A DNA stretch of 64,000 nucleotides from Crateriforma conspicua (GTDB lineage: Bacteria > Planctomycetota > Planctomycetia > Pirellulales > Pirellulaceae), in assembly GCF_007752935.1 (NCBI RefSeq), contig NZ_CP036319.1, positions 2,914,001 through 2,978,000 of the forward strand, given 5' to 3'. A program made the translations under genes and the position numbers. Positions 3,365 through 57,489 of this stretch are shown piece after piece. The notes beneath the pieces are model-generated. The model was given only the letters and a program-made list of their open reading frames with translations. It was not told where the DNA came from and did not search any database. The number at the start of each line of letters is the position of its first letter. Position 1 is the first letter of the stretch.

Positions 3365-6300
3365 CTACGATTGTCTCGATCGGTGCTTCTTAAAATTTTC
3401 GGCCTGCTCGTAGATCTCTTTGTAGACCTCGTCACGGTCAACGGGTGGGTAGCCGTGGTCGGCTAGGACGAGGATGAGATCGACTTTGAGTTCAGCTTTG
3501 ATGTCGTCGCGCTGGCTCCAGTCGGTGTATTTGACTTTGTCATCGACGACCAGCTTTACGGCTTTGGATAGTTCGATCAGCTTGTCTTCGGGGTAGGTGA
3601 AGTCGTACTTGATGGCGAGGGCTTTGAGGATGTCGTAGAAGGCTTTTTCTTCGAGGTCGATTCCAAGGTCTGCGAATGAACCTCGTTCATCACCAAGTTC
3701 TCTCGCTAGCTCCGCGAACCGGTTGAAAAGTTCATCCGTGACGTAATCAGTGAAATCACTCGTTACATCGCTGACCAGCACGCTTTCTTCGTCCCGCTCG
3801 TTGTAGCGATCGACCAGTGATTGGAACTTCTTACTGAACTCGATCCCCTTGGATCGATTCGTCTTCTTGAAGTCCTCAATCGCCTTGGCCAGCAACTGCT
3901 GCAGCAACTTGATCTTCGTGTTGGGCAGCTTGATCTTCTCGATCTTGGCGAGGTAGTCATCGTCGAAGATGTCGATGCCGTCGACCGTGCCCATACTGAA
4001 GATCTCTTCGACTCCGTCGCTCTTGAGTGCTTCGGCGATCATCTCTCGGACGCGTGCGTTCATCTGAGCGGCGTCGGGGGCGTTACCCTTGGTCAGCTTG
4101 AACACGATGGAGCGAACGGCCAGATAGAAGTGGATGTGATCACGCTCGCTCTGGGTTAGGCCCTCGCTGCCACAACAAATGTCATAGGCCGCTTTCATAC
4201 GCTGAACCAAAGCCATGAAACGCTTCTCGATCTTGTCCGTAAGCATGACGTATTCGGACGCACGATTGAGGCAAGCGAGCTGGCTGACAGAATCGCCGTT
4301 GAAATAGTCCGAGGTGTCGAACTTTTGTAATAGCTGGCGAAGCAGGTCCAGGTGGTCTTTCACGGTCACGACGGATTGTTGGATGTCCTCGATGTTCCGC
4401 TCGTCGGCTTTGTTGTAGTGAGCCATCGCCAGATTCATCTGAGACTTGATGCCGATGTAATCGATCACCAAACCCTTTTGCTTCGATTCAAACTTGCGGT
4501 TCACTCGGGAAATCGTCTGAATCAAGTTGTGGCGTTTGATCGGCTTGTCGATGTAGATGCTGTCCAGTTCGGGCACATCAAATCCGGTGAGCCACATATC
4601 GACGACGACCGCAATCTTGAAGTTCGATTTCGCGTCCTTGAACTGGCGTGCAAGTTCTTCGCGATACTCTTTGCTGCCCAGCAGGTCGTACAGATCCTTG
4701 TCGTCATCTTTGCCGCGAGTCATGATCATCTTGATCCGCTCCATCGGCTTGATCTTCTTGCGCTCGGTCTCAGACAGTTGGATGCCCTCGGCACACTCGC
4801 GGACTTCATTCCACTCAGGACGCAGAGCGATCACTTCCTTGAAGAAGTCCCAGGCGATCTCGCGTTTGCTGCACACAAACATCGCCTTGCCTTCGACTGT
4901 CGAACCTTCTTCGACTCGTTTCTCGTAATGAGCCACAAAGTCGGCGGCCAGAGCCTTGATGCGGTCGGGATCGCCCAGGATGGCATTCATCTGGGCCGAG
5001 GCTTTCTTGCTCTCCTCGATCTGATAATCGCTGGCCCCTTCGTCGGCGCAGCGCTGGTAGTAAGCTTCGATTTCCTCCAGCTTCTTGTTGTCTAACAGCA
5101 CCCTGGCTGCTCGCCCCTCGTAGACGATCCGCACGGTGATCTCATCTTTCACCGACTCGGTCATCGTGTAGGAATCGACCACCTCGCCAAAAACATCGAG
5201 CGTGGCGTCGATGGGCGTGCCGGTAAAGCCGACATAGGTGGCATTGGGCAGCGAATCGTGCAGGTACTTGGCAAACCCGTAAGTCTTCTTCACTCCCTTG
5301 TCCGTCACCTTCAGCTTTTGGTCCAGATTGATCTGACTGCGATGCGCCTCGTCGGAAATGCAGATCACGTTGCTGCGCTCGGTCAGCAACTGAGCGTCTT
5401 CGGTGAACTTGTGAATGGTCGTCAGGAAAACGCCGCCGCTCTTGCGTCCGGCCAGCAACTCGCGGAGCTTATCGCGGCTTTCGACGCTCACGACAGTTTG
5501 ATCGCCGATGTAGTTCTTGGCGTTGGTGAACTGCTTCGACAATTGATCGTCCAGATCCGTGCGGTCAGTAATCAGCAGGATCGTAGGGCTCTCGAATTCG
5601 AGGCTCTTCATCAACAGCCGCGTCAGGAACAGCATCGTAAAGCTCTTGCCGCAGCCGGTTGCGCCAAAGTACGTGCCGCCCTTGCCGTCGCCATCGGGCT
5701 TGCGAGCTTGCCGGATGTGTTCATACAGCTTGCAAGCCGCGTAGAACTGCGGATACCGACAAACGATCTTCACTTCGGCCTTGGAAACATCCGGAAAGTA
5801 GATAAAGTGCCGGATCACCTGCCGCAAACGCCGTTGGTCAAACAATCCTTGCAGCATCGTATGCAACGAATCGATACCGTCTCGCGTGGCGGACTCTTCG
5901 CCCGTGATTTTCTGCCAGGTGTAGAAGAACTCGTAGTCCGCAAACAGCGAACCCATCTTGTTGTTTACCCCGTCGCTGATCACGCACAGGGCGTTGTACT
6001 TCATCAGTTCGGGAATATCGCGAGCGTAGCGGATCGTCAATTGTTTCCAAGCGTCGTGCAAAGTCGCGTTCTCGCGGATCGCGCTCTTGAACTCCAGCAC
6101 CACCAGCGGCAAGCCGTTGATGTAGAGAATCCCATCCGGAATCCTCAGCTCGCGGCCTTCGATCTCCAGTTGGCTGACGATTCGATAGATGTTCGTGTCG
6201 TCGACTTCGTATCCAACTCTGGCTTCGGCTGCGAGCATCATGTCGCTAGATTGTCGCCTTTCGCTCCGCGAAACTAGCTTCTCCCCGTCTGGAGTTTCTT

Positions 6301-6664
6301 CCGAACGCATCTTTCGCGGAGCGAAAGGCGACTCTGAGTAGTCGATCAGTTGGATGTAGAGATCCTTCTGGTCGCGGTCTTCCCGTTTCAGCAGGAAGCC
6401 GTCCGAGACCCATTTGCAGATCGTTTTGTTGGAGTCGTAAAGATCGGCGGCGTTGAGTGCGTCCAGTTGCCGAAGGATCGAATCGATTTCGCCCGCTGTG
6501 ATGTTGTCGGCGGCGTAACGCTTCGAAAGATAGTCGCGTAGGTCGCTGCGGAACAGTACATCGCTGGGCTCGCGATCAAGCTCGTTGCCAAGTGTGTGCG
6601 GGTAGCCTTGATCACCCAGCAGGCTGATAATGGCTTCTTCGAGTTTCGCTTCGGTGTATTTCAC
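3365..6664 (-). CDS. hsdR: Type I restriction endonuclease subunit R
   Basis: This is the translocase and nuclease subunit of a type I restriction system, 1099 aa from a GTG start. Numbered from that start, the N-terminal nuclease has PDGILYINGLPLVVLEFKS, with Asp177 and the Glu191-x-Lys193 pair of the PD-(D/E)xK fold. The helicase motor follows, with Walker A GATGCGKS (334-341), DEAH (438-441), ending with QTISRVNR. The long C-terminal helical region contacts the methylase. Residues of about 111-137 are encoded by a palindromic repeat inserted in frame between LIDYS and NIYRIVSQLEI, segments that lie close together in most HsdR proteins; the nuclease core is downstream and intact. A TTG at 6685 also opens this frame, but a palindrome covers it and GTG 6664 is preceded by GGAG, so I prefer the latter. 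It is the last gene of the operon. Confidence 0.95.
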   Translation of the reverse strand: MKYTEAKLEEAIISLLGDQGYPHTLGNELDREPSDVLFRSDLRDYLSKRYAADNITAGEIDSILRQLDALNAADLYDSNKTICKWVSDGFLLKREDRDQKDLYIQLIDYSESPFAPRKMRSEETPDGEKLVSRSERRQSSDMMLAAEARVGYEVDDTNIYRIVSQLEIEGRELRIPDGILYINGLPLVVLEFKSAIRENATLHDAWKQLTIRYARDIPELMKYNALCVISDGVNNKMGSLFADYEFFYTWQKITGEESATRDGIDSLHTMLQGLFDQRRLRQVIRHFIYFPDVSKAEVKIVCRYPQFYAACKLYEHIRQARKPDGDGKGGTYFGATGCGKSFTMLFLTRLLMKSLEFESPTILLITDRTDLDDQLSKQFTNAKNYIGDQTVVSVESRDKLRELLAGRKSGGVFLTTIHKFTEDAQLLTERSNVICISDEAHRSQINLDQKLKVTDKGVKKTYGFAKYLHDSLPNATYVGFTGTPIDATLDVFGEVVDSYTMTESVKDEITVRIVYEGRAARVLLDNKKLEEIEAYYQRCADEGASDYQIEESKKASAQMNAILGDPDRIKALAADFVAHYEKRVEEGSTVEGKAMFVCSKREIAWDFFKEVIALRPEWNEVRECAEGIQLSETERKKIKPMERIKMIMTRGKDDDKDLYDLLGSKEYREELARQFKDAKSNFKIAVVVDMWLTGFDVPELDSIYIDKPIKRHNLIQTISRVNRKFESKQKGLVIDYIGIKSQMNLAMAHYNKADERNIEDIQQSVVTVKDHLDLLRQLLQKFDTSDYFNGDSVSQLACLNRASEYVMLTDKIEKRFMALVQRMKAAYDICCGSEGLTQSERDHIHFYLAVRSIVFKLTKGNAPDAAQMNARVREMIAEALKSDGVEEIFSMGTVDGIDIFDDDYLAKIEKIKLPNTKIKLLQQLLAKAIEDFKKTNRSKGIEFSKKFQSLVDRYNERDEESVLVSDVTSDFTDYVTDELFNRFAELARELGDERGSFADLGIDLEEKAFYDILKALAIKYDFTYPEDKLIELSKAVKLVVDDKVKYTDWSQRDDIKAELKVDLILVLADHGYPPVDRDEVYKEIYEQAENFKKHRSRQS
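6253..6332. repeat. Palindromic element inside hsdR
   Basis: Two perfectly complementary 21-base arms (6253-6273 and 6312-6332) enclose a 38-base centre. The same arm sequence, extended to 27 bases, forms the palindrome at 62230-62295 in this window. Here it lies within the hsdR frame and is translated (SPFAPRK on one arm, SRSERR on the other). The element is 80 bases, not a multiple of three, so flanking duplicated or extra bases must restore the frame. The longer inserted protein segment of about 40 residues fits that. Confidence 0.85.
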
Positions 6665-6683
6665 GGTGCTCCAACACTTTTTC

Positions 6684-6774
6684 AACGCAAGGTCGCAAAG
6701 GTGCTGAGGCGCAAAGGGGAGGGACTCATGTCTGAATGTTTCTTTGCGACTCTGCGGCTTCGCGTCTCTGCGTT
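6684..6774. repeat. Imperfect palindrome (ACGCAGAGGCGC family) between hsdR and GxxExxY gene
   Basis: Left arm 6684-6716 begins AACGCAAGGTCGCAAAGG. Right arm ends at 6774 with CGCGTCTCTGCGTT. The arms can pair imperfectly over about 33 bases around a loop of about 25. The element ends one base before the stop codon of the GxxExxY gene and belongs to the same sequence family as 7184-7276 and the three hairpins inside the 205-bp units at 8.7-9.3 kb. Confidence 0.8.
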
Positions 6775-6775
6775 T

Positions 6776-7156
6776 TCATAATTCATGCACGACCCGATGA
6801 ATTCCGTCTTTGACCAGTCTTTCGCCGAAATTAATCACCAGGCCCAGCTTGAGGTTCCTCAGTCGTAGGTATGTCAGTAGCTGCGTGGCGAAGATTGAAT
6901 TGTATTGCGTCACGGCCTTGCATTCGACAATGACGAGGTCGTTGACGAGCAAGTCGATCTTCAGCGGTGTAGCGAGCGTGACGTCCTTGTACTGAATGGG
7001 CGAGGGAACTTGTCGTCGGACGTTGCAGCCCTGTTGTGTCAATTCGTAGGCCAGGGCTTCTTCGTAGACTGATTCAAGCAAACCCGGGCCGCCTAAGGTG
7101 CGATGGACTTCAATGGCCGCGGAAACGATTACCTGGCTGATCTCGTTTTCGGTCAT
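6776..7156 (-). CDS. GxxExxY protein (PD-(D/E)xK_3 nuclease-like family)
   Basis: This 126-aa protein carries the signature GPGLLESVYEEALAYEL that names the GxxExxY family, which Pfam places in the PD-(D/E)xK nuclease superfamily. The core is visible as PLKIDLLVNDLVIVECKAV, with Asp and Glu-x-Lys in the usual spacing, followed by the conserved QLLTYLRLRNLKLGLVINFG. The cellular role is not established. It sits on the same strand between hsdS and hsdR, a place not normally occupied in a type I operon. It is tightly bracketed by related imperfect palindromes (6684-6774 and 7184-7276), as is the second copy at 56712, so gene plus palindromes look like an inserted unit. ATG 7156 is chosen; a TTG one codon earlier also opens the frame. 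Confidence 0.85.
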   Translation of the reverse strand: MTENEISQVIVSAAIEVHRTLGGPGLLESVYEEALAYELTQQGCNVRRQVPSPIQYKDVTLATPLKIDLLVNDLVIVECKAVTQYNSIFATQLLTYLRLRNLKLGLVINFGERLVKDGIHRVVHEL

Positions 7157-7183
7157 CAATCGTTACTCCGAAGTCATTTTTTT

Positions 7184-7276
7184 AACGCAAAGGCGCGAAG
7201 GCGCAAGGACGCAAAGGGGATGCGCGCGACTTTTCAATGTCTTCTTTGCGACTCTGCGCCCTTGCGTCTTTGCGTT
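7184..7276. repeat. Imperfect palindrome (ACGCAGAGGCGC family) between GxxExxY gene and hsdS
   Basis: Arms 7184-7216 and 7244-7276 are complementary at about 27 of 33 positions (AACGCAAAGGCGCGAAGG against CTTGCGTCTTTGCGTT). It fills the gap between the hsdS stop and the GxxExxY start and pairs with 6684-6774 to bracket that gene. As RNA it would form a long hairpin inside the operon transcript. Confidence 0.85.
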
Positions 7277-7293
7277 TTCTTTGTCCGACCGCA

Positions 7294-8721
7294 TCATACG
7301 CTCTCCGCCACCAGTTTTTCAGCCTCAGGAATGCGAAGTTCGCCTGAGAGGAGTTTGGGGAGGAGTGTGTCGCGAAGTTTGGATAACACCGCGGTACTCT
7401 GCCAGTTCTCACTAATCCTGTTGGTTAATGGCACTACCGAGTCGCCGAAAGCGTTTTGCAATTCCACAGATGGAAGAAGGAGTTGAATTGTTCGTAGCTG
7501 ACTCTGCTTGATTCCGATCACCGTCGTACCCGTAGCATGGCCGCGAAGGTCATGCTGAAATTGCGGAGACTGCAAAAGGAATCTGAGGTAGGAATTGTGG
7601 AGCAAGGTCGGTTCCCCCCGCAAAGTTATGATTCGCTGTGCTAATGCAACTTTACGTCCATCCAATTGCGCAACCTCACCTAAAGGTGCCTCCGTTGTCA
7701 TTACGACATCATCACGCTCTGGAATCCCACGCCGCATCCAAGTGTCGTAATCTTCGATAGCAATGTATTCTTGCGGAGGCAGTATTCTTCCGCCCTTAAC
7801 GATCTTAGCCGTAATTAGTGGAACCCCACTCGTTGTTTTCTTCGGCGTTTTGCCTCTGTAATCGATGATTGCTTCCATTGAATCTTCGAGTGGTTTCACG
7901 TCCCATCCCTCAGGGATCCAGCCCATTTCTTCATCGAAGGCGAAGGTGGCGGGGAAGAGGCTGCGGATGTTCTCTGGGAGTGGCTTTCGGGCGGGGCCGA
8001 GGGCGCGGCGGGTTTCGGCTCGGGCGGCCAGTGGCTCGGGGATGGAATGGCCAGCGGCCAAGGCATTGTCGATCACCGGATCAAAATCCACAAACCAACT
8101 CTTGAACAACGCCCGCGCCATCGACTCCAGCGTCTCATTCATCCGACGATTCAAATCGATCTTGTCATCGATTATGGATGCCAGTTCCGTAATTCCTTCG
8201 CGGACATTGTCCGGAGGAATAGGAACAACTACCTCACGAATGTCCTTCAGATTTAGAGTTCGCTGAACCGTTGTATTGAAACGTGAGTTCATGAATTGCT
8301 GAGCTGGGTGGCTCAGCAGTGCAAGCCGCACCCATCGGCGAAGTTCCGGGTTTTCGAGGCGTACAACTGCGATGGCTCGCGCGACGTTCCAATCCGCCAT
8401 TTCCTCTGAGACTAAAGCACAATCGCCGGGATTGCCAACGAGTGTGATGAGTAGCTCGTTACCGGATAATCGAGTTCGCCTGTACTCGTCGTCTTTTTTA
8501 GCACTAATCAAGAAATCTGGCTCACCAAGCACTCGCCCATTCTTGACATCTGAGACTTTGACAAGCGGAACTCCCTCCGCGGTGTTTTTGCCGGGGTACA
8601 TGACTCCAACCGCGAGCGCGTTCCTTGAGTCTTCAAGCAAACTCTCGATTGTTGTAAACCTCCATTCTGCCGGGGCGGTTCCACCGCATAACTCCCACGT
8701 CGCCCGCAAATCACTCTCCAT
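7294..8721 (-). CDS. hsdS: Type I restriction-modification specificity subunit S
   Basis: This 475-aa protein has the two-fold HsdS build. The first target recognition domain (about 20-170, with GVPLVKVSDVKNGRVL) is followed by a central conserved helix (about 175-225, IIDDKIDLNRRMNETLESMA then LFKSWFVDFDPV). The second recognition domain (about 285-430, GWDVKPLEDSM and GVPLITAKIVKGGRIL) is followed by a distal helix (LSKLRDTLLPKLLSGELRIP). It sets the DNA sequence read by the HsdM/HsdR complex. ATG 8721 lies inside the tail of the last 205-bp unit (TATGGAGAGTGA) and is preceded by GGAGG nine bases upstream. An upstream in-frame extension through the repeat is unlikely to be used because the overlap start fits better. 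The 5' end was probably once overlapped directly by hsdM; see the tandem repeat. Confidence 0.93.
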   Translation of the reverse strand: MESDLRATWELCGGTAPAEWRFTTIESLLEDSRNALAVGVMYPGKNTAEGVPLVKVSDVKNGRVLGEPDFLISAKKDDEYRRTRLSGNELLITLVGNPGDCALVSEEMADWNVARAIAVVRLENPELRRWVRLALLSHPAQQFMNSRFNTTVQRTLNLKDIREVVVPIPPDNVREGITELASIIDDKIDLNRRMNETLESMARALFKSWFVDFDPVIDNALAAGHSIPEPLAARAETRRALGPARKPLPENIRSLFPATFAFDEEMGWIPEGWDVKPLEDSMEAIIDYRGKTPKKTTSGVPLITAKIVKGGRILPPQEYIAIEDYDTWMRRGIPERDDVVMTTEAPLGEVAQLDGRKVALAQRIITLRGEPTLLHNSYLRFLLQSPQFQHDLRGHATGTTVIGIKQSQLRTIQLLLPSVELQNAFGDSVVPLTNRISENWQSTAVLSKLRDTLLPKLLSGELRIPEAEKLVAESV

Positions 8722-8926
8722 AACCAAGCACCTCCAGATTCTTCCGGATGGCTTGATCGAGCTTCTCCGTGGGGGCATACAAATCTAAAACGCAGAGACG
8801 CGAAGACGCAGAGACGCAAAGATGTTGTTCTGACTGTCTTCCTTTGCGTCTTTGCGACCTTGCGTCTTTGCGTTGAAACCCATCCCGCAACACCAAAGCA
8901 TCGTCGCCTAGCAAGCTACTCCCCAT
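8711..8926 (-). CDS. Repeat-encoded 71-codon linker ORF, copy next to hsdS
   Basis: The frame opens at ATG 8926, preceded by GGAGG, in one 205-bp unit and stops at TGA 8711-8713 in the next unit. That stop overlaps the hsdS ATG by 11 bases. The product would begin MGSSLLGDDALVLRDGF, run through the translated palindrome and end KLDQAIRKNLEVLGYGE, a copy of the HsdM tail. Seen directly: start, ribosome binding site and overlap are all preserved. Whether a stable peptide is made is unknown; passing ribosomes on to hsdS is my inference. Confidence 0.35.
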   Translation of the reverse strand: MGSSLLGDDALVLRDGFQRKDARSQRRKGRQSEQHLCVSASSRLCVLDLYAPTEKLDQAIRKNLEVLGYGE

Positions 8927-9131
8927 AACCAAGCACCTCCAGATTTTTCCGGATGGCTTGATCGAGCTTCTCCGTGGGGGCATACAAATTTAAAACGCAG
9001 AGGCGCGAAGGCGCAGAGGCGCAAAGATTTTGGTCTTGGTCTCTTCCTTTGCGTCTTTGCGACCTTGCGTCTTTGCGTTGAAACCCATCCCGCAACACCA
9101 AAGCATCGTCGCCTAGCAAGCTACTCCCCAT
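8916..9131 (-). CDS. Repeat-encoded 71-codon linker ORF, middle copy
   Basis: It has the same design as its neighbours. ATG 9131 lies 9 bases after GGAGG, and TAG 8916-8918 overlaps the next linker ATG (8926) by 11 bases. The predicted product shares MGSSLLGDDALVLRDGF and the KLDQAIRKNLEVLGYGE tail, and differs from the copy nearest hsdM only in the part translated from the diverged palindrome. The short cysteine- and arginine-rich middle (LCVSASSRLCVL) is the palindrome read as protein. I infer a coupling role rather than a folded product. Confidence 0.35.
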   Translation of the reverse strand: MGSSLLGDDALVLRDGFQRKDARSQRRKGRDQDQNLCASAPSRLCVLNLYAPTEKLDQAIRKNLEVLGYGE

Positions 9132-9336
9132 AACCAAGCACCTCCAGATTTTTCCGGATGGCTTGATCGAGCTTCTCCGTGGGGGCATACAAATTTAAAA
9201 CGCAGAGGCGCGAAGGCGCAGAGGCGCAAAGATTTTGGTCTTGGTCTCTTCCTTTGCGTCTTTGCGACCTTGCGTCTTTGCGTTGAAACCCATCCCGCAA
9301 CACCAAAGCATCGTCGCCTAGCAAGCTACTCCCCAT
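9121..9336 (-). CDS. Repeat-encoded 71-codon linker ORF, copy next to hsdM
   Basis: ATG 9336 lies inside the last codons of hsdM (TATGGGGAGTAG), so the hsdM stop at 9326-9328 overlaps this frame by 11 bases. It stops at 9121-9123, again overlapping the next linker start. The ribosome binding site GGAGG is part of the hsdM coding end (codons for LEV). This is the first link in the chain hsdM, three linkers, hsdS. There is no similarity to any protein family I recognise other than the copied HsdM tail. Confidence 0.35.
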   Translation of the reverse strand: MGSSLLGDDALVLRDGFQRKDARSQRRKGRDQDQNLCASAPSRLCVLNLYAPTEKLDQAIRKNLEVLGYGE

Positions 9337-10918
9337 AACCAAGCACCTCCAGATTCTTCCTGATCGCTTGATCGAGCTTCTCCGCTTCATCCATCTGCCC
9401 GTACAGCGTGGCGGTCAAGTCAGCCATCTTCGTCTCAAACGGAATGCCGTCGTCTTCCAGCGGAGCCGCGCCGACATAACGTCCCGGCGTGAGCACGTAG
9501 TCGTTGGCTTTGATGTCCTCCAGCGTCGAGCTTTTGCAAAAGCCGGGTTGGTCTTCGTACTCGCCGTCCTTCGATTCGCCTCGCCAAGCGTGATAGGTCC
9601 TCGCAATCTCGTCGATGTCGTCTTCGGTCAACTCCTTGTGCGTGCGGTCCACCATCGTGCCGTGGTTTCGAGCGTCGATGAAAAGCGTTTCGCCGTGACG
9701 GGCGCGGAGGTCGCTACCAGACCGGCGGCTAGCGCCTTGCCGCTCACCTTTATTCTTGGTGATGAACCACAGGCAAACGGGAATCTGAGTCGTGTAAAAC
9801 AACTGCCCCGGCAGCGCGATCATGCAATCGATCAGATCGTTTTCGATCAGCTTTTGGCGAATCTTGCCCTCGCCGCTGGTGCTGGTGGACATCGAACCGT
9901 TGGCCAGCACAAAACCCGCGATGCCATTTTCAGACAGCTTCGACACCATGTGTAGGATCCAGCCGTAGTTGGCGTTGCCGGTGGGCGGCACGTCGTAACC
10001 GCTCCAGCGAGGATCGTCGCTCAGTTCGTCGGCGGCTCGCCACGCTTTCAGGTTGAACGGCGGATTGGCCATGATGTAATCCGCCTTCAGATCCGGATGC
10101 TGATCCTTGAAAAAGGTGTCGGCGGGGACTTCGCCCAGATTGCCCGAGATGCCGCGAATGGCCAGATTCATTTTGGCCAGCTTGTACGTCGTGCTGGTTT
10201 GCTCCTGCCCGTAGATCGAGATGTCTTTCTGGTTGCCGCTATGGCTGGTGACAAACTTGACGGACTGGACAAACATGCCGCCGCTGCCACAGCAGGGGTC
10301 GTAGATCTTGCCGCTGTACGGCTCGATCATTTCCGCGATCAGGTTGACCACGCACTTGGGCGTGTAGAACTCGCCGCCCCCTTTGCCTTCGGTCGCCGCA
10401 AATTTGCCCAGGAAGTACTCGTAGACGCGGCCTACGACATCCTCTTTGGAATCGGCAATCGTGTTGATGTTGTTGATGCTGTCAATCAACGCCGCCAGCT
10501 TGGCAACATCGATGCCCATCCGCGAGAAGTAGTTGTCGGGTAGTGCTCCCTTGAGCGATGGGTTGTTCTTTTCCACGGCATGCAGGGCGCTATCGATACG
10601 AACGGCGATGTCGTCTTGTTTGGCCTGCGCCACGATCGTGGACCACCGCGAGTTCTCTGGCAGATAGAAGACGTTCTTCATCGTGTAGAACTCGACCATG
10701 TCCACATAGTCGCCCTTGCCGTCATCGATGATCGCCTGCCGCCGCTCCTCAAATCGATCGCTGACGAACTTCAGAAAGATCAGCGAGAGGACGACGTGCT
10801 TGTACTCGGACGATTCAACCGTCCCACGCAGCTTGTCTGCGGTGTCCCAGAGGGTTTGCTCGAAGGATTTTTTGGATTCAGTTGCCTTCTTCTTGGATGC
10901 GGTTGATTTCTTTGCCAT
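9326..10918 (-). CDS. hsdM: Type I restriction-modification DNA methyltransferase subunit M
   Basis: This 530-aa N6-adenine methylase subunit has an N-terminal helical domain (about 15-165, SFEQTLWDTADKLRGTVESS). The catalytic domain follows with FYTPKCVVNLI, the AdoMet loop DPCCGSGG (207-214) and the catalytic NPPF (285-288). The C-terminal part ends EKLDQAIRKNLEVLGYGE. With HsdS it methylates host sites; with HsdR added it cuts unmodified DNA. Around residues 395-410 (NKGERQGASRRSGSDLRA) the protein looks slightly longer than is usual before ETLFIDARN, and the DNA there resembles a dispersed repeat. It is the first gene of the operon, with a promoter-like sequence just upstream. Its last 55 bases are the source of the downstream 205-bp repeats. 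Confidence 0.96.
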   Translation of the reverse strand: MAKKSTASKKKATESKKSFEQTLWDTADKLRGTVESSEYKHVVLSLIFLKFVSDRFEERRQAIIDDGKGDYVDMVEFYTMKNVFYLPENSRWSTIVAQAKQDDIAVRIDSALHAVEKNNPSLKGALPDNYFSRMGIDVAKLAALIDSINNINTIADSKEDVVGRVYEYFLGKFAATEGKGGGEFYTPKCVVNLIAEMIEPYSGKIYDPCCGSGGMFVQSVKFVTSHSGNQKDISIYGQEQTSTTYKLAKMNLAIRGISGNLGEVPADTFFKDQHPDLKADYIMANPPFNLKAWRAADELSDDPRWSGYDVPPTGNANYGWILHMVSKLSENGIAGFVLANGSMSTSTSGEGKIRQKLIENDLIDCMIALPGQLFYTTQIPVCLWFITKNKGERQGASRRSGSDLRARHGETLFIDARNHGTMVDRTHKELTEDDIDEIARTYHAWRGESKDGEYEDQPGFCKSSTLEDIKANDYVLTPGRYVGAAPLEDDGIPFETKMADLTATLYGQMDEAEKLDQAIRKNLEVLGYGE

Positions 10919-10955
10919 GCGGGTCGATCGGATAACGAAAAAGGCAGTGCTTCTA

Positions 10956-10985
10956 CTATTAGGATGAAAACCAAGAGTTTAGCAA
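10956..10985 (-). promoter_or_regulatory. Candidate promoter for the hsd operon
   Basis: Read on the minus strand, TTGCTA (10985-10980) and TAATAG (10961-10956) are separated by 18 bases, 38 bases upstream of the hsdM ATG. This is a sigma-70-like match judged by eye only. Confidence 0.35.
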
Positions 10986-11387
10986 TTTGACCTGTTCTTA
11001 ACACGACCGGTTGCACCATCGGTGTGCCCATTCATTGGATTCGGATTCGCAAACAACCCTGGTGCACAGCTCGACGTAATACAATTGTTGCTATTTGCAT
11101 CCAGTGGATGGTGCGTGAAGCTATGCCGTCAAACCGGGGGCTTGTCCATTCCGGCCGTTTCCCCAGACCGAAGAAGTTCTTGGAGTTACTGGAACACAAC
11201 GCTGGATGTGTTGCCGAACCAGAGGTAACTGTGTGACCGAACGCGGAACGAATGGGAACGCGAACATGGCTACGCAAAGGATCAACTCAACTGCCAATAG
11301 ACCAATGCCAATTTCAATCGAGGTGATCGGCCTACAAATGATTCCAGGCCGAAGCAAAGCACGAAATCACTACGTGTAAGTGTGAGC
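10986..11387. other. Intergenic region between hsdM and thiD
   Basis: About 400 bases separate the hsdM promoter region from the end of thiD. Short open frames exist on both strands (for example 11024-11236 plus) but none has a ribosome binding site, family motif or plausible composition. I see no tRNA, repeat or clear terminator. Its base composition is less GC-rich than the thiD side, so it may be the outer edge of the restriction island. Confidence 0.5.
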
Positions 11388-12230
11388 CTAGCAGCGGATC
11401 GTCTTCTTTGACGCTTCCAAGACGTCGATTGCGCTGACACCCCGGCCGATTCGATACGGCGATGCGATGCCGGCGGTGACGAAACGTCGGGCGCGTTCGA
11501 TGGCCGAAACCAAGTCCTTTTGGGACGCCAGACCGGCGGTGATCGCGGCCGACAGCACGCAACCGGTGCCGTGCAGATTGCCGCCGTCGATCCACTGGGT
11601 CGTCCAGGTTTGCGTTTCCGGCCGTCCGCTTTGGCCTGAGCGCAGCGACAAAAAATCGACCGCGTGATTGTCGAATTGGGCTTTGATCAAGACGGCTGGA
11701 ACGCCCTGGTCGTGCAACCGCGTCGCGGCAACGGCCAAATCGTCTTCGCTTTCGATGCTGGTTTCCGCCAGTCGTTCGGCTTCGAATCGATTGGGGGTGA
11801 CCAGGGACGCGACCGGCAACAACTGGGTTCGCAATGCGTCGACGGCGCCGTCATCGATGATCGCGTGGCCGTGTTTGCTGATCATCACCGGGTCGACCAC
11901 GATCGGACATTTCAGTGACGACAAAGCCGCCGCGACCGTGGCGATCATTTCAGCCGTACCCAAAGCACCGGTCTTCACCGCGTCGGGCGGAATGTCACTG
12001 GTCACGCAGTCGAATTGGCTTTGGAAAAAGTCCATCTGCAGCATTTCGACCGCTTCGACGCCTTGCGTGTTTTGCACGGTCAGCAGCGTCACTACCGCCG
12101 AACCATAGACGCCGAAGGCATGCAGCGTTTTCAAATCGGCTTGCATCCCGGCACCGCCCGACGGATCGCTGCCGGCGATGGTCAGTGCGACGGGATGGCG
12201 TGGGCCGAGTGGTGTTTCAGGTTGGTTCAT
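11388..12230 (-). CDS. thiD: Hydroxymethylpyrimidine/phosphomethylpyrimidine kinase
   Basis: This 280-aa kinase of thiamine synthesis phosphorylates 4-amino-5-hydroxymethyl-2-methylpyrimidine (phosphate) in the cytosol. The N-terminal LTIAGSDPSGGAGMQADLK is the ThiD substrate motif, KTGALGTAEMI follows, and IVVDPVMISKHGHAIID is the typical ribokinase-fold strand and loop. Near the end, WIDGGNLHGTGCVLSAAIT contains the GTGC anion hole with the catalytic base region. The length is normal for ThiD. The ATG at 12230 leaves about 20 residues before the conserved core. It is a single gene here, transcribed divergently from the O-antigen-ligase-like gene across a 256-base gap in which I see nothing else. 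Confidence 0.94.
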   Translation of the reverse strand: MNQPETPLGPRHPVALTIAGSDPSGGAGMQADLKTLHAFGVYGSAVVTLLTVQNTQGVEAVEMLQMDFFQSQFDCVTSDIPPDAVKTGALGTAEMIATVAAALSSLKCPIVVDPVMISKHGHAIIDDGAVDALRTQLLPVASLVTPNRFEAERLAETSIESEDDLAVAATRLHDQGVPAVLIKAQFDNHAVDFLSLRSGQSGRPETQTWTTQWIDGGNLHGTGCVLSAAITAGLASQKDLVSAIERARRFVTAGIASPYRIGRGVSAIDVLEASKKTIRC

Positions 12231-56514: not shown

Positions 56515-56613
56515 ACCCACATCCAAACACCGGCAGATTCATGCGAAAGAAAGCTGCCCACTCTTTTTTTCCTGAGTTGCCGAAACCAGGTGCCAAGTGG
56601 GTTTCGGAAAGCA

Positions 56614-56685
56614 AAACACGGAGGCACCGAGGACACAGAGAATCCGTCCCCGTACCAGCTCTGTGATCTTTGTGGCTCCGTGTTT
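56614..56685. repeat. Imperfect palindrome (ACACGGAGGCACCGAGG family), left of GxxExxY gene
   Basis: Arms 56614-56640 and 56659-56685 are complementary at about 22 of 27 positions, with loop AATCCGTCCCCGTACCAG. It has the same length and layout as 57114-57185 on the other side of the gene. Confidence 0.88.
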
Positions 56686-56711
56686 CAAACTCGATCACGG
56701 AAAGGATAACG

Positions 56712-57092
56712 ATGAGTGAAGTGGACCGATTGACTGAAGCAATCATCGGTGCCGCGATCCAAGTCCACAAACGACTTGGTCCCGGTCTATTAGAATCGGC
56801 CTACCGAATCTGCTTGGCGTACGAACTCCGCAAGCGAGGTCTCGAGGTCGTTGAAGAAATGCCGGTCCCTGTTATCTACGACGATGTGAAACTCGAGTGC
56901 GGGTTTCGAGCTGATCTGATTGTGAACGGTCAGGTTGTCGTTGAGCTAAAGGCAAAATCTGCAATTCATCCGGTCGATAAGGCGCAAGTTTTATCGCATC
57001 TTCGTTTGTTGAAATTTCGGTTTGGTTTGCTCATCAATTTCCACGAGCAGCGCGTCGTTGATGGCATCAGCCGGATCGTCAATGGGTACTGA
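56712..57092 (+). CDS. GxxExxY protein (PD-(D/E)xK_3 nuclease-like family)
   Basis: This is the second copy of the family in the window, again 126 aa. The signature is GPGLLESAYRICLAYELRKR. The nuclease-like core reads ECGFRADLIVNGQVVVELKA, with Asp and Glu-x-Lys kept, followed by HLRLLKFRFGLLINFHE. It is only distantly alike in sequence to the copy at 6776, so the two are not a recent duplication. ATG 56712 follows AAAGGA by six bases. It lies between the ABC ATPase and the TPR peptidase on the same strand and is framed by two 72-base palindromes of one family, which are different in sequence from those around the first copy. Confidence 0.87.
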   Translation: MSEVDRLTEAIIGAAIQVHKRLGPGLLESAYRICLAYELRKRGLEVVEEMPVPVIYDDVKLECGFRADLIVNGQVVVELKAKSAIHPVDKAQVLSHLRLLKFRFGLLINFHEQRVVDGISRIVNGY

Positions 57093-57113
57093 AATGAATC
57101 GTGAATGAGTTGA

Positions 57114-57185
57114 AAACACGGAGGCACCGAGGGCACAGAGAATTCGTCCCCGTACCTGCTCTGTGATCTCCGTGCCTCCGTGTTT
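57114..57185. repeat. Imperfect palindrome (ACACGGAGGCACCGAGG family), right of GxxExxY gene
   Basis: Arms 57114-57140 and 57159-57185 are complementary at about 24 of 27 positions. The sequence is a close copy of 56614-56685 in the same orientation. The 300 bases after it, up to the next gene, show nothing further. Confidence 0.88.
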
Positions 57186-57489
57186 CAAACTCTCGCTCAC
57201 TCCATCCAGGCTCAGTTTTTGAAAACAATGAGGGCAGGACTCAATTACTTTTCTCCGTCAGACAACGTGTGGGCTTGGTGTGATCGATCGTCATGACCCG
57301 GACGACGATTTGCTCCGCACAGGCGGTCGGTGTGACTCGGGTAAACTTGACGAGTGATCCGAATGTGAAATTGGTCCTCCATTGGGTTCAGTGGCCTGCG
57401 AAGTTTCCGAAACGCGAAAATTGGCGGTCCCGGCAGTCCGGTGGCGCTTCGGTGGGGTTGAACACGATAAACTGGACCGGATCGATTTC

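Follow-up and report, generated by a model that had tools for sequence, protein, structure and literature searches.

Copies of the hsdM 3' end accompany many insertions at the hsdM/hsdS junction of type I restriction-modification operons, among them a tandem array of three 205-nt units

We believe that insertions between hsdM and hsdS are probably tolerated only when they come with a duplication of the hsdM tail, so that selection can keep the translational coupling of the two genes, and that the array described here is the case in which a hairpin element was tandemly amplified. The array lies between hsdM and hsdS at 8711-9325 on the minus strand of the window (the whole 64,000-nucleotide stretch of DNA that was analysed) and consists of three head-to-tail units of exactly 205 nt. 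The genes around it form a type I restriction-modification operon, as hsdM, hsdS and hsdR are all present with their domains. The minus-strand order is hsdM, the three units, hsdS, a PDDEXK_3 (GxxExxY) nuclease gene and hsdR:

9326-10918, minus: hsdM, 530 aa (N6_Mtase 2.8e-108, HsdM_N 2.6e-24); its 3' end holds a Shine-Dalgarno sequence (GGAGG) and the start codon (ATG) of the frame that follows
9121-9336, minus: linker frame 1, 71 aa, 11-nt overlap with hsdM
9121-9325, minus: unit 1, 205 nt
9199-9284, minus: REP-like imperfect palindrome of unit 1 (equivalents at 8994-9079 and 8789-8874)
8916-9131, minus: linker frame 2, 71 aa, 11-nt overlap with linker 1
8916-9120, minus: unit 2, 205 nt, identical in sequence to unit 1
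8711-8926, minus: linker frame 3, 71 aa, 11-nt overlaps with linker 2 and with hsdS
8711-8915, minus: unit 3, 205 nt, 14 differences from unit 2, ending in TGA like the ancestral hsdM/hsdS junction
7294-8721, minus: hsdS, intact, 475 aa counted from the coupled ATG (Methylase_S 3e-11)
7175-7279, no strand assigned: palindrome of the same family at the hsdS/PDDEXK_3 junction
6776-7159, minus: PDDEXK_3 (GxxExxY) nuclease gene (PF13366 1.9e-36), with palindromes on both sides
6675-6777, no strand assigned: palindrome of the same family at the PDDEXK_3/hsdR junction, whose arm at 6741-6776 pairs with the unit arms at 92-94% complementarity
3365-6685, minus: hsdR, 1106 aa

A first-pass annotation of this DNA had described three 205-base units, a copy of the hsdM tail with GGAGG and ATG in each, and a chain of 71-codon frames joined by 11-base overlaps, and all of this holds. 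Tandem Repeats Finder gives a period of 205, 3.3 copies and 96% matches. Each unit is made of a spacer, a REP-like palindrome with 33-nt arms that are 85% complementary (8789-8821 and 8842-8874 in unit 3) and a copy of the hsdM 3' end (EKLDQAIRKNLEVLGYGE*); only about 57 nt are hsdM-derived, and the remainder is palindrome and short spacer. The stop/start overlap is 11 nt at all four junctions from hsdM through the linkers to hsdS, and at each of them GGAGG stands 5' of the ATG (CCTCC at 9346-9350, 9141-9145, 8936-8940 and 8731-8735). The frame from each tail ATG is open for 71 codons and terminates in the next copy of the HsdM C-terminus (9336-9121, 9131-8916 and 8926-8711). The earlier description did not include the composition of the unit as a hairpin element plus a tail, the element family that also brackets the PDDEXK_3 gene of the operon, or the recurrence of tail duplication across phyla.

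The array could be an artefact of assembly, but the sequence of unit 3 is not that of the other two, and the genome is a single contig. The identity of units 1 and 2 means that they were recently duplicated. A structured RNA in the unit was considered and rejected: one unit with its junction folds no more stably than its shuffles (z -0.79), so that claim was dropped although the DNA palindrome is clear, and an Rfam scan of 6000-12000 found no family reaching its gathering score. As for the open frame, dinucleotide-shuffled versions of the insert are open in 18% of trials, which with the frame requirement of 1/3 comes to about 6% per unit. One open unit by itself would be a mild surprise at most; what gives the pattern weight is its recurrence in other operons.

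The same layout is seen in three further small inserts between hsdM and hsdS. In G075 a palindrome unrelated to that of the window (CACGGAGACACAGAG type, against CGCAAAGACGC type in the window's Pirellulaceae-type genome) stands with an hsdM tail copy at a spacing of 169. L047 and L045 carry a GTAGGGTGCGG-type palindrome at spacings of 169 and 127, and the tail of L045 is reduced to the Shine-Dalgarno sequence and the overlap. Like the 205 of the window, all three are 3n+1, open, and overlapped by 11 nt at each end, which bears out the claim that the coupling layout is kept across the insert. The chance of being open and in frame, from dinucleotide shuffles times 1/3, is 0.06 for the window, 0.12 for G075, 0.08 for L047 and 0.21 for L045; the joint chance is about 1e-4 if the four are independent, a figure to be used only as a guide since L045 and L047 share an element type. 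A scan of 241 genomes of the family for a tail-gap-tail pattern found only G075 and G233, the 205-nt spacing being outside the range of the pattern, and in 392 genomes of the phylum the same scan gave no match. The 241 family genomes hold only three small-insert cases, and only one multi-unit array was found. Of the two pattern matches, G075 (169 nt) is 3n+1, and G233 (177 nt, 3n) is the frame counter-example among the small inserts.

G233 is worth considering closely. It was found in a family search with the unit as query, and its HsdM, PDDEXK_3 protein and HsdR are 97%, 94% and 88% identical to those of the window. Its junction holds one related unit of 177 nt where the window has three. The chain is broken there, as the ATG frame runs for 37 codons before it closes. 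Its hsdS is a pseudogene with a nonsense codon and a frameshift. A relative with a broken frame and a well expressed hsdS had been named as the observation that would count against the chain; the only broken-frame relative has a disrupted hsdS. This fits the chain being needed without proving it, and G233 is a single data point. The comparison does show that unit number differs between orthologous operons. The claim that the array lengthens and shortens gains indirect support from this difference and from the two identical units.

The same two observations are what favour the idea that unit number tunes dosage, with successive imperfect reinitiations setting the ratio of HsdS to HsdM. We consider this quite improbable: the window holds the sole multi-unit array found, the 241 family genomes have only three small-insert cases, and each unit has its own Shine-Dalgarno sequence, so the loss per step may be small.

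The state before insertion can be read from relatives in many phyla, in which hsdS starts inside the end of hsdM. These loci were sampled by similarity to the HsdM of the window, and about 54 of 65 directly joined ones have an overlap of exactly 11 nt, typically ATGGGGAGTGA. The window insert is therefore derived, and the direct 11-nt overlap proposed earlier as its former state stands. The hsdM stop is TAG or TAA at the five small-insert loci (the window, G233, G075, L045 and L047) and the stop overlapping hsdS is TGA, as expected if the HsdS frame now constrains just the final copy. The stop codons at the insert junctions (9316-9336 in the window, and equivalents) look as if entry had been between T and GA.

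The coupling account would work as follows. The Shine-Dalgarno sequence and start of hsdS lie within the last 30 or so nucleotides of hsdM, with the 11-nt overlap, and this would couple their translation. Because they lie inside hsdM, DNA can enter without damage to either gene only if the hsdM tail is duplicated; the duplication would give hsdM its proper end and hsdS its own leader, and the insert would best be read through, in the ATG frame of the first tail, into the second. In the window a REP-like palindrome with a tail copy (3n+1) would have entered the junction and been tandemly amplified to three units, two of them recent. A ribosome ending hsdM would then reinitiate at each overlapping ATG and be passed via the three 71-aa linkers to hsdS. 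We infer the reinitiation itself, selection for coupling as the cause, and the mechanism of insertion. Points against this account include the strong Shine-Dalgarno sequence of every unit, so that independent initiation at hsdS could make the open frame incidental, and the chance for a single insert, which is only 6-21%.

Insertions of whole genes extend the argument, as they too keep the chain. The tail search began after the first cases had been seen. Genes found between hsdM and hsdS include KilA-N (L048, L104), ORF6N (L082, L091), DUF1016 (L049, L096), PIN (L053) and AlbA_2 (L079), and in most of these cargo loci a full or truncated hsdM tail stands directly 5' of hsdS or of the inserted gene. 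The tail is fused to the cargo ORF in L015, L073, L082 and L091. Otherwise it forms a mini-ORF with a possible start from -14 to +3 relative to the cargo stop; all nine tail mini-ORFs fit, and the product of their shuffled chances is about 7e-5, leaving out L096 and L104, whose mini-ORFs were chosen by that very feature. Additional downstream tail copies are found in L173, L177, L183 and L211. No tail copy was found at the insertions in L014, L065, L113 and L119, and these four loci count against the coupling account. Open-access literature that we searched gave no description of hsdM-tail copies at this junction.

Some of these loci have other peculiarities. L065 (about 5960-7643) and L113 (about 6060-7700) have long HsdS-containing ORFs of 542 and 546 aa, whose N-terminus resembles a nucleotidyltransferase (MNT) and which are preceded by a small partner-like ORF; an antitoxin-HsdS fusion is possible from these resemblances. 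In L088 a 181-aa ORF at 8128-8674 follows the last hsdM tail and seems to combine a DUF1016-type N-terminus with the C-terminus of an HsdS. It is probably a remnant.

The codon changes tell us which part of the insert is constrained. Compared with its own hsdM, the tail has changed at 3 codons in the window, at 6 in G233 and at 4 in G075, always synonymously (about 13 to 0, where random expectation is 22-35% synonymous). In the linker body 7 of the 8 codon changes between units 2 and 3 are non-synonymous. The tail is thus constrained and the linker peptide is not. This weakens a peptide role, which the first-pass annotation had left as an alternative and in which linkers ending in the HsdM C-terminus would act as decoys or assembly aids. 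The strict conservation of tail residues, the fused tail at the end of some cargo proteins and the position of the HsdM C-terminus beside HsdS in the enzyme model (PMC3510504) would suit such a role; the freely changing bodies, linker bodies unrelated from operon to operon, and tails cut to the Shine-Dalgarno sequence and overlap would not, and we think it very unlikely indeed. The tail may be constrained because it is translated now or because it was, until recently, the end of a donor hsdM.

This last point leads to a different reading, that the array is the scar of recombination. Here the present hsdS would have come from a different hsd operon, bringing the tail of the donor hsdM along as its leader, next to a hairpin that promotes recombination. 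That the linkers are open and in frame would be incidental, and the array would have grown by slippage afterwards. Synonymous-only tails, which could reflect a recent donor hsdM and not linker translation, weigh against coupling in the same way. In favour of a scar, the tails show synonymous differences from the hsdM of their own operon, with 5 residues changed in L047, the target-recognition regions of hsdS differ between the window and G233 despite hsdM being 97% identical, and hsdM tails of unlike sequence stand within one operon at several loci (L048, L049). The 5 residues by which the L047 tail departs from its own HsdM support a donor origin there, and in at least that locus the insert is likely to have arrived by recombination with the hsd operon of a donor. 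However, a scar gives no reason for four small inserts to be 3n+1 with open linkers, or for tail mini-ORFs to begin at the cargo stop or beside it, and as a rival to coupling we regard it as unlikely. Recombination may explain the origin of the inserts and coupling their retention.

The full 205-nt unit is confined to this array in the genome, and the remaining genomic matches are to the palindrome alone. All four PDDEXK_3 genes of the genome are flanked by palindromes, one family per gene (in the window at 6675-7279 and about 56610-57200). Matching repeats on both flanks (score at least 13) are found at 25 of 31 PDDEXK_3 loci of the bacterial family, the surveyed loci including L125, L126 and L212-L240, versus 0 of 24 PIN-domain controls, whose highest score is 11 (Fisher p 2e-10). 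In the window, G233 and G075 the insert palindrome belongs to the family adjoining the PDDEXK_3 gene of the same operon, which suggests that the junction element derives from the palindromes beside that gene. Mobilisation of the palindrome by the PDDEXK_3 nuclease is a hypothesis. More broadly, the hsdM 3' end could be a reusable translational adaptor across phyla, by which anything that comes to lie between hsdM and hsdS is chained through a fresh copy of the hsdM tail. The planctomycete small inserts would be palindromes spread by the GxxExxY (PDDEXK_3) nuclease whose gene they flank, and the window array would be one of the products, with a copy number that could vary. We put this forward as a tentative and still doubtful idea; if true, it would be a nuclease-palindrome mobile system previously undescribed.

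How operons of overlapping genes accept insertions has been little studied, though such overlaps are common in bacterial operons. Here the sequence itself gives an answer: the upstream gene has its 3' end copied and the coupling is restored, and this has happened repeatedly in independent cases. Tail copies can also be used to locate accessory genes that sit within type I operons. The variants of this operon (0, 1 or 3 units; 3n versus 3n+1) are ready-made constructs for studying reinitiation chains over hundreds of bases and for asking whether repeat number sets the subunit ratio of a type I enzyme.

Among known systems, EcoKI has an hsdM that overlaps its hsdS, as in the family of the window; translational coupling of the two EcoKI genes is reported, and in the enzyme model the C-terminal helices of HsdM run along HsdS (PMC3510504). 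However, the EcoKI overlap is 1 nt and nothing lies between the genes, so it has neither tail copies nor linker frames. Other type I operons likewise carry KilA-N, ORF6N, DUF1016, PIN or AlbA_2 genes between hsdM and hsdS, but the open-access literature searched gave no description of a tail copy that restores the coupled start of hsdS behind the cargo. REP and BIME sequences resemble the palindrome of the window, which is imperfect, about 100 bp long, intergenic, and present in several copies and in many genomes of the family. Unlike them, it lies inside an open frame, is fused to an hsdM tail and brackets a PDDEXK_3 gene with others of its family. Mycobacterial interspersed repetitive units (MIRUs) vary in tandem copy number and target stop/start junctions. 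The window array likewise sits at such a junction with an ORF that overlaps the next gene, a likeness that here is one of overlap architecture. MIRUs are short repeats inserted in operons, where their small ORF is coupled to the gene that follows, and they disturb expression little (PMC12548453). The MIRU overlap is 4 nt and that of the window 11 nt at every junction; MIRUs are one dispersed family, whereas the full unit of the window is found only in this array; and the unit carries a copy of the 3' end of a host gene, as unrelated palindromes also do at the hsdM/hsdS junction. The array would work on the MIRU principle but is not classed as a MIRU, given its overlap length, content and genomic distribution.
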